Below, one piece after another: positions 8,642-12,670 of a DNA stretch of 46,654 nt. Below the pieces are notes generated by a model that was given only the letters and a program-made list of their open reading frames with translations, had not been told where the DNA came from and did not search any database. Numbering within the stretch: the stretch's first letter is position 1; every line of letters begins with the position of its first letter. Source of the DNA: Terriglobales bacterium (GTDB lineage: Bacteria > Acidobacteriota > Terriglobia > Terriglobales > Acidobacteriaceae); the NCBI GenBank assembly GCA_035457425.1, contig DATIBR010000131.1:1-46654 (forward strand), written 5' to 3'. Position numbers and translations under genes: made by a program.

Positions 8642-9535
8642 TCAAGCGCTCAGGATACGCGCCAGCGCCTCGTCCAGTCGAGGATGCTGGGGCTGAAATC
8701 CTGCGGCCGCGAGCTTGGCCGGCACGACTCGCTGGCTAGCGAGCAGCAGCGCTTCGGCCATCTCGCCGAGCGCGAGCCGCGCCGCGAAGGCGGGCATGGG
8801 AAAGATGGTGGGGCGATGGAGCGCCTTGCCGAGCGCTTGCGTGAAGTCGGCGTTGCGCGCGGGCTCGGGCGCGACGACATTCACCGGGCCGCGCAGCGCT
8901 TCCGTCGCGAGCGCGAAGCGGAAGGCGGCAACCACGTCTGCGAGCGTGACCCAGCTCCAGTACTGGCGGCCGCTGCCGATGTTGCCGCCCAGGCCGAGTT
9001 TGAAGGGCGTGAGCATGCGCGGCAGCGCGCCGCCGTGCTTCGCCAGCACGACGCCGAGCCGCAGCTTGACCACGCGGATGCCGGCGCGCTCCGCCGGCTC
9101 CGCCGCCGCTTCCCATCCCTGCACGACCTGCGCCAGGAAGTCCTTGCCCGGCGCGCTCTGCTCGGTCAGCGCTTCGTCGCCGCGATCGCCGTAGTAGCCG
9201 ATGGCGGAGGCCATCACCAGCACGCGCGGGGGCTTCACCATCTCGGCGAGCGACTCGGCGACCTGGCGCGTGCCGGTGACGCGGCTCTCATAGATGCGCC
9301 GCTTCTTCTCGCTCGTCCAGCGGCCGGCGATGTTCTCCCCCGCGAGGTGAATGACGGCGTCGAAGCCCTCGAAGAGCGAGGGCAGCGGCCCCGCGGCGGG
9401 GTCCCAGTAGACCTCGGGCGCGCCGGGGGCGGGGGGCTCGCGGCGCAGTCGGATGAGCTGGTGGCCGTCGCACACCAGCGCCGGCACCAGGGCCGACCCT
9501 ACGAATCCCGCAGCTCCCGTCACGGCGATATGCAT
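8642..9535 (-). CDS. TIGR01777 family NAD(P)-dependent epimerase/oxidoreductase
   Basis: 297 residues, the usual length for the YfcH/SDR39U1 group of atypical short-chain dehydrogenases. The N-terminal Rossmann loop is TGAAGFVGSALVPAL (6-20). Family hallmarks are VIHLAGENIAGRWTSEKKRRIYESRVTGTR (about 61-90), the catalytic-region YYGDRGDEALTE, and RLGVVL. The C-terminal DUF1731-like part ends with the diagnostic helix RVVPAKLAAAGFQPQHPRLDEAL. Substrate is unknown, although in cyanobacteria and plants a relative affects cell division and chloroplast morphology. It is upstream of and probably co-transcribed with the ATPase gene. Confidence 0.92.
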   Translation of the reverse strand: MHIAVTGAAGFVGSALVPALVCDGHQLIRLRREPPAPGAPEVYWDPAAGPLPSLFEGFDAVIHLAGENIAGRWTSEKKRRIYESRVTGTRQVAESLAEMVKPPRVLVMASAIGYYGDRGDEALTEQSAPGKDFLAQVVQGWEAAAEPAERAGIRVVKLRLGVVLAKHGGALPRMLTPFKLGLGGNIGSGRQYWSWVTLADVVAAFRFALATEALRGPVNVVAPEPARNADFTQALGKALHRPTIFPMPAFAARLALGEMAEALLLASQRVVPAKLAAAGFQPQHPRLDEALARILSA

Positions 9536-9619
9536 GAGCTATTGTCGAACGCGGCGCGCCCCGCGCGCAAAGAGTTGAACGCGCGCTTGGAGCGCGCCTC
9601 CAGAAGTTGAACCCCTGCG

Positions 9620-10213
9620 CTACCGGCCTGCGCCGGCGGTCTGGGGCTGCATCTCGACGTACTGCAGGAACGCCGGGCTCACGCCGCCGTACGTACCAGC
9701 AACGTCGGTGATCACCTTCGGCGCCATCACGCGCGAGCCAAGGACGAACAGCACCAGCGAGGCGAAGAATGCGCCAAAGCCGACCAGCATTCCCCAACCG
9801 TCCATGTCCGGGCCGCTGGTGCCGACCCAGATGCCCGCCGGGATGCAGCCCAGGAACAGGAGCCAGCCGATGCCGAGGTACATGCGGCGCCGCTGACGAT
9901 GCGGGTCGCAGAGCGGCACCTGGATCTTCTGGCGCTTCATCACGATGGTGGCCACGATGGCGTAGATCAGCAGTCCGGGGAAGAGGATGAGCAGATACAG
10001 CCAGGGCTGGTGCCAGCCAAAGTTCCTGTTCACGACGCCGGCGGAGGGCTGGCCGCACTTCACGCAATAGGGCGGCAGCGAGGCGCCGATAGGGATGACG
10101 AGGTTGTCTCCCTCGCGGCGCAGCGCCAAAACGGGCCGGGCCAGCGTATTGCCGCAGGTCGTGCACGTCGCGGCAGAATCGGCGTTCTTCGTTCCACAGT
10201 TCGCGCAGAACAT
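9620..10213 (-). CDS. zinc-ribbon membrane protein of unknown function
   Basis: 197 residues. The N-terminal zinc ribbon has two CxxC pairs (MFCANCGTKNADSAATCTTCGN, Cys at 3, 6, 17 and 20). A further CVKCG occurs at about 51-55 (PPYCVKCGQPSAG). Three or four hydrophobic segments follow (LYLLILFPGLLIYAIVATIVM, YLGIGWLLFLGCIPAGIWVG, LVGFGAFFASLVLFVLGSRVMAPK). A short cytoplasmic loop CDPHRQRRR lies between helices. The overall design matches many uncharacterised double-zinc-ribbon membrane proteins of Acidobacteria. GGAGGAT stands 8 nt ahead of the ATG. No function can be assigned. Confidence 0.8.
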   Translation of the reverse strand: MFCANCGTKNADSAATCTTCGNTLARPVLALRREGDNLVIPIGASLPPYCVKCGQPSAGVVNRNFGWHQPWLYLLILFPGLLIYAIVATIVMKRQKIQVPLCDPHRQRRRMYLGIGWLLFLGCIPAGIWVGTSGPDMDGWGMLVGFGAFFASLVLFVLGSRVMAPKVITDVAGTYGGVSPAFLQYVEMQPQTAGAGR

Positions 10214-10304
10214 AGGGCGGATCCTCCCCCGGGAGCGGCGGGATTATCCGTGCTGTGGGCGGTTCCGGCAAGAGGGAATCGCGGGGAGCCGCAGATTTAC
10301 TCGC

Positions 10305-10310
10305 TATAAT
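10305..10310 (+). promoter_or_regulatory. consensus -10 hexamer in front of the rel leader ORF
   Basis: A perfect TATAAT, 5 nt before the ATG of the short ORF at 10316. Transcription would start at or within one or two bases of that ATG. No convincing -35 sequence is visible at 16-18 bp upstream. Confidence 0.5.
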
Positions 10311-10315
10311 CCAGT

Positions 10316-10456
10316 ATGGCCACGTTGCGACATCCGATCGCGGCTTCTTTTTCCTTAGAACCGCTGAGCGATCTCGCGGCGCGAGCTGCCCTTCGGCCTT
10401 TGGGCAGGCGGCTCGGCGGGCAAGCCGGCCTCGCCGCCTCGGTGGAGATCTTCTAG
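10316..10456 (+). CDS. short leader ORF (46 codons) abutting rel
   Basis: An open frame of 46 codons starting MATLRHPIA and ending with TAG at 10454-10456. It touches the ATG of rel at 10457 with no gap and lies in the same frame. Rel itself begins MATLRHQIA: eight of nine residues match, and 21 of the first 26 bases are identical. A consensus TATAAT lies 5 nt upstream, so the leader would be translated from a leaderless mRNA. The remaining peptide (about 37 residues rich in Ala, Leu and Arg) resembles no known family. It could be a translational-coupling leader, an attenuating peptide, or the scar of a duplication of the rel 5' end. Expression is unproven. Confidence 0.4.
   Translation: MATLRHPIAASFSLEPLSDLAARAALRPLGRRLGGQAGLAASVEIF

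Positions 10457-12670
<2,214 letters not shown>

Follow-up and report, generated by a model that had tools for sequence, protein, structure and literature searches.

The short open reading frame (ORF) that precedes rel in the window, i.e., in the whole analysed stretch of 46,654 nucleotides from a soil acidobacterium, copies the start of rel and ends at the rel start codon. Comparison with related genomes makes it likely that this ORF is leaderless and translationally coupled to rel, and that it arose upon displacement of rel from a leaderless promoter.

Layout of the rel leader in the window

The layout described in an earlier note was read directly from the sequence: TATAAT is followed by five bases and an ATG, which opens 46 codons closed by a TAG abutting the rel ATG in the same frame (Table 1). 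The first bases of the upstream ORF are identical to the rel start at 21 of 26 positions, as previously counted. The ORF translates as MATLRHPIAASFSLEPLSDLAARAALRPLGRRLGGQAGLAASVEIF, and the GGAG which may serve rel sits inside its end. The window Rel is a RelA/SpoT-family protein (TIGR00691, E=3e-238) with HD, RelA_SpoT, TGS, and ACT domains. Since the -10 element ends 5 nt before the ATG at 10316, the transcript likely starts at or next to this ATG, and the upstream ORF itself is therefore likely leaderless. The product of the divergent neighbour of rel (9620-10213, minus strand) is a 197-aa protein that has a zinc ribbon at its N-terminus.

Table 1. Features of the rel leader and their positions in the window.
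Feature	Position	Strand	Remark
-10 element TATAAT	10305..10310	+	in most relatives located 5 nt ahead of the ATG of rel itself
Upstream ORF, 46 codons and TAG	10316..10456	+	ATG 10316-10318, TAG 10454-10456; mRNA probably leaderless
Copy of the rel start (MATLRHPIA)	10316..10342	+	homologue of the leaderless start that rel has in relatives
Weak terminator-like hairpin, then TTCTTTTTCC, inside the upstream ORF	10324..10344	+	1 found, 0.4 expected
Predicted hairpin holding GGAG, TAG, and rel ATG	10442..10485	+	start codon unpaired probability 0.00
GGAG, possible Shine-Dalgarno for rel	10444..10447	+	9 nt before rel ATG; suggested by sequence
TAG-ATG junction, upstream ORF abutting rel	10454..10459	+	read directly
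rel, RelA/SpoT-family (p)ppGpp synthetase/hydrolase, 737 aa	10457..12670	+	ATG 10457-10459

Probable leaderless rel in the relatives

The rel loci for comparison were gathered from the same GTDB family and beyond, and most of the genomes were metagenome-assembled. In 133 distinct loci (among L006-L279) a -10 element of the form TATAAT, TAAAAT, or TAGAAT stands exactly 5 nt before an ATG in the rel frame, and only 17 rel loci were displaced without an ATG at this position. The sequence logo of the rel starts reads TATAATC-N4-ATGGCGAC, and no conserved -35 element was seen in it. Outside the family, several loci from other families of the order and class had TATAAT 5-8 nt before the rel ATG and others had not. 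In a 581-kb sample of the window genome, ORFs with 100 codons or more were surveyed for -10-like sites, which were several-fold more frequent per position at 6-12 nt before the ATG than at 13-30 nt.

Leaderless genes are common in Acidobacteria, comprising 13.3% of genes in three acidobacteria, and in bacterial leaderless genes a TANNNT precedes the start by about 12 nt (Zheng et al. 2011, PMC3160421). Given the position of the -10 element before the ATG and this frequency of leaderless genes, the translated rel mRNA is probably leaderless across much of the class Terriglobia, its -10-only promoter being directly joined to the ATG. The probable leaderless rel in most relatives, which the earlier note had missed, is the key to the structure in the window. 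There, the -10 resembles that of the leaderless genes in PMC3160421 in form and in its distance from the ATG, but the probable leaderless start belongs to the upstream ORF and not to rel.

Besides the element at -11, a further TATAAT lies 60-125 nt ahead of rel in many relatives (L017, L035, L039, L041, L043, L051, L056, L061, L066, L068, L075, L084, and L260) and possibly gives a second, leadered rel transcript. In other clades (L026, L031, L138, L151, and L167) Rel has, after the leaderless start MAT and in place of the conserved MATLRHQIATNVLTVT, a variable N-terminal extension of low complexity and up to about 80 aa.

Upstream ORFs in six genomes

In six genomes, the arrangement TATAAT, 5 nt, and ATG is the beginning of a short ORF, 18-65 codons long; the six represent five lineages, L011 and L182 being from one genus (Table 2). 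Between these two, the ORF and its stop were retained despite a 60-nt (20-codon) indel. In the Rel tree the five lineages are scattered inside one 18-row clade (SH-aLRT 94), and the distribution needs a minimum of five changes. Repeated origins and a single origin followed by many losses are both possible histories, direct repeats being able to delete precisely. The conservation of the leader frame, which the earlier note had proposed as a check, was thus found in part: five other genomes have the ORF, but it is absent from the only congener, G001 (L006, 90% Rel identity), where TATAAT stands 17 nt before the rel ATG. Neither was there an upstream ORF in G084 (L115), which has an odd -10 spacing of 10 nt.

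Table 2. Upstream ORFs of the six genomes; ends are given in nt relative to the rel start.
Genome	Start of peptide	Length (aa)	End	Frame relative to rel
L005 (window)	MATLRHPIAAS...	46	0	in frame
L007	MGSPRHRM...	35	+13	out of frame
L010	MASLRRQP...	18	-3	in frame
L011	MACLRHPK...	45	+14	out of frame
L182	MACLRHPR...	65	+14	out of frame
L118	MASTRRAS...	27	+13	out of frame

Resemblance of the ORF starts to rel

Over nucleotides 4-27 the window ORF matches its own rel start at 18/24 positions, and none of 20,000 leader shuffles was as good. This match at the DNA level supports, for the window, the tandem duplication of the rel 5' end that had been considered earlier. For L010 the corresponding match was 14/24 (P=0.0012), and for L118 and L007 it was not significant. 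The ORF starts were also scored on a profile built from 88 leaderless rel starts, on which 4,325 control ATGs inside rel genes reached a maximum of -5.8. The window ORF start scored 19.2 (0/20,000 shuffles), and five of the six ORF starts scored above their shuffles (P from <5e-5 to 0.0009), with L118 as the exception (P=0.08). Most simply, these comparisons suggest that the original rel start stayed with the promoter, and that a duplication or insertion of DNA shifted the functional start of rel downstream.

Several other accounts of the leader were considered and set aside. By eye, the leader was not convincing as a decayed copy that reaches past the ninth Rel codon. A search for a dispersed repeat as source of the insert gave no family and, elsewhere in the genome, two weak matches, one of 76% over 72 nt and one of 93% over 28 nt. 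An assembly artefact is unlikely: the differences between the two starts are scattered and mostly silent, and the same arrangement is present in other genomes.

Placement of the stops and recoding of Rel codons

Counted from the first base of rel, all six ORFs terminate between -3 and +14 nt. Those of the window and L010 stop just before rel, in its frame, and the other four (L007, L011, L182, and L118) enter rel out of frame and are stopped at Rel codons 4-5. Codon 5 of Rel is CGN in all 107 other comparable relatives, including 16/16 with a displaced rel and no upstream ORF. In the out-of-frame genomes codons 4 and 5 read CTT-AGG, CTT-AGA, CTA-AGA (the pair of L118), and CTG-AAG, and the stops made by these pairs are TAG, TAG, TAA, and TGA, respectively; they lie in two different frames, each being the ORF's own. 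In L118 the AGA at codon 5 and the CTA at codon 4 are the sole AGA and CTA among 733 rel codons. At control rel starts an out-of-frame stop by +15 occurred in 4/214 frames. The stop position has been maintained in evolution, codon 5 being recoded to suit the ORF frame in 4/4 genomes vs 0/107; counted as three independent lineages, the recoding vs 0/107 gives Fisher p=4.6e-6, a descriptive value for a pattern noticed by inspection. Relaxed constraint was rejected as the cause of the codon-5 changes, since CGN is retained in 16/16 displaced rel genes that lack an upstream ORF.

Geometry, ORF architecture, stop placement, and recoding are direct readings, and the last two argue strongly for selection in related species for an ORF stop at the rel start, which in turn points to a translational relay feeding ribosomes into rel. 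As a comparative signature, synonymous or conservative recoding of codons 4-5 of a conserved enzyme to give a stop in an overlapping frame would mark a bacterial upstream ORF as translated and bound to end at the next start, and this has apparently been repeated in several lineages.

The rel start codon and the predicted hairpin

The rel start codon is GTG in three of the six upstream-ORF genomes vs ATG in 91/91 leaderless ones, as expected if rel no longer needs a 5'-terminal AUG. In five of the six, all but L007, it is predicted to be paired (unpaired probability at most 0.01), and among the displaced controls such pairing was predicted in 1/17 (unpaired 0.03). The difference between upstream-ORF and displaced genomes (Mann-Whitney p=0.003) is an in silico one and includes L007 without a hairpin. 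In the window, a ribosome arriving at the TAG would melt the predicted hairpin.

Proposed relay

We infer the transcript start, translation, and coupling as follows. In at least five lineages, that of the window included, rel would have been parted from its promoter by DNA that was duplicated or inserted, and the promoter would have retained an ATG with rel-derived first codons as the start of a new short leaderless ORF. Ribosomes would load at the 5'-terminal AUG, translate 18-65 codons, and terminate at the rel start. Termination would open the hairpin hiding this start and leave a ribosome there, so that rel could be translated either through reinitiation after termination or because ribosomes newly initiate on the opened site. 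The upstream ORF may thus act as a relay for ribosome delivery, the peptide probably being unimportant.

Coupling at overlapping stop and start codons is experimentally established in bacteria and takes two forms, reinitiation and new initiation at a start that has been unfolded (Huber et al. 2019, PMC6728339). The termination coupling which the earlier note had suggested is well supported by the stops at -3 to +14 in six genomes, and further by the recoding of Rel codons 4-5 in the exact ORF frame. Against the relay count the overlaps of 13-14 nt, which exceed typical reinitiation junctions and may favour new initiation on the opened site over reinitiation. Counting against it as well are the absence of the ORF from the sole congener and its presence in five lineages only, the 17 displaced rel genes that manage without one, and the in silico nature of the hairpins together with their lack in L007.

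Alternative explanations

Absence from the congener and a scattered distribution (minimum five tree changes) would also fit a non-functional relic, i.e., a duplication of the rel 5' end that displaced rel and left an inconsequential start, with rel initiating on its own GGAG, which in the window lies 9 nt before the ATG. The peptide body points the same way, as the differences between L011 and L182 by codon position (6/4/9 over 33 leader codons vs 4/2/32 over 111 rel codons) suggest that it is weakly constrained. Nevertheless, we regard a relic as unlikely, since the stops fall within -3 to +14 in 6/6 genomes with codon 5 recoded in the exact ORF frame, and the predicted hairpin buries the start codon in 5/6.

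A regulatory leader peptide or attenuator, which would sense amino acid or ribosome state by its sequence and switch rel, appears quite improbable. Its architecture would resemble the leaderless short ORFs that are cysteine-responsive attenuators in mycobacteria, rel would be a logical target, and the window leader contains a weak terminator-like hairpin with a T tract; T tracts are present also in L011 and L182. However, the six peptides have only about their first six residues in common, so that conservation does not extend over the whole ORF, their total length ranges from 18 to 65 aa, and no run of one regulatory amino acid was found in any of the six. This, along with the weak amino-acid constraint, speaks against the amino-acid sensing proposed in the earlier note. 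Weak terminator-like hairpins were found in L005, L011, and L182 only and none in L007, L010, and L118, so a transcription attenuator common to the upstream-ORF genomes was rejected. An Rfam search of 9500-11000 gave only chance matches and no family, and a protein family search with the leader peptide gave no match. The idea of TAG readthrough to a second Rel, extended N-terminally by 47 residues, draws on the in-frame ORFs of the window and L010 and on the in-frame extensions from the same leaderless ATG in L167, L138, L026, and L031. It is not supported and very improbable, as the ORF is out of the rel frame in L007, L011, L182, and L118, i.e., in 4/6 genomes, and the frame is closed by a stop in all six.

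Relation to known systems

Polycysteine attenuators formed by leaderless short ORFs have reportedly been described by Canestrari et al. in 2020, as cited in PMC9031893. Like these, the ORFs discussed here are probably leaderless and precede the gene that would be regulated, but a run of regulatory codons is lacking in all six.

The closest system to the proposed relay is that of the mycobacterial leaderless upstream ORFs coupled to downstream genes, for which ribosome delivery has been proposed, with peptide sequence secondary (Shell et al. 2015, PMC4633059). In both cases a short ORF stands at the 5' end of a leaderless transcript, for rel a probable one, and its stop meets the start of the downstream gene. 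Unlike in mycobacteria, where the overlap is RTGA, the ORFs described here abut rel or overlap it by 13-14 nt; they occur in a different phylum, the ORF start resembles that of the downstream gene, and this gene is rel. The evidence for the rel ORF is comparative only. With the coupling described in PMC6728339 the rel ORF shares a stop adjoining a start, a downstream start that is here predicted to be hidden in structure, and a possible Shine-Dalgarno in the upstream ORF, but the upstream partner there is a full gene and here a mini-ORF that would be loaded leaderlessly.

For E. coli only, (p)ppGpp has been reported to activate leaderless and to inhibit canonical translation (review PMC9031893). 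It is conceivable, though rather doubtful, that Terriglobia keep rel on leaderless loading, directly or via the mini-ORF, because (p)ppGpp favours leaderless initiation. If so, Rel would be made preferentially at high (p)ppGpp, and the stringent response would feed back positively on itself at the level of translation. The upstream ORF would then serve to restore the leaderless route after displacement of rel. The probable leaderless rel across a bacterial class makes such a link between the stringent response and leaderless translation directly testable.

One clade with displaced rel (L019, L064, L072, and L091) has neither an upstream ORF nor an ATG after the -10. Its codon 2 has changed from GCN to ACN, and this change produces an ATGA (or TGATGA) at the rel start, which is a typical coupling junction.
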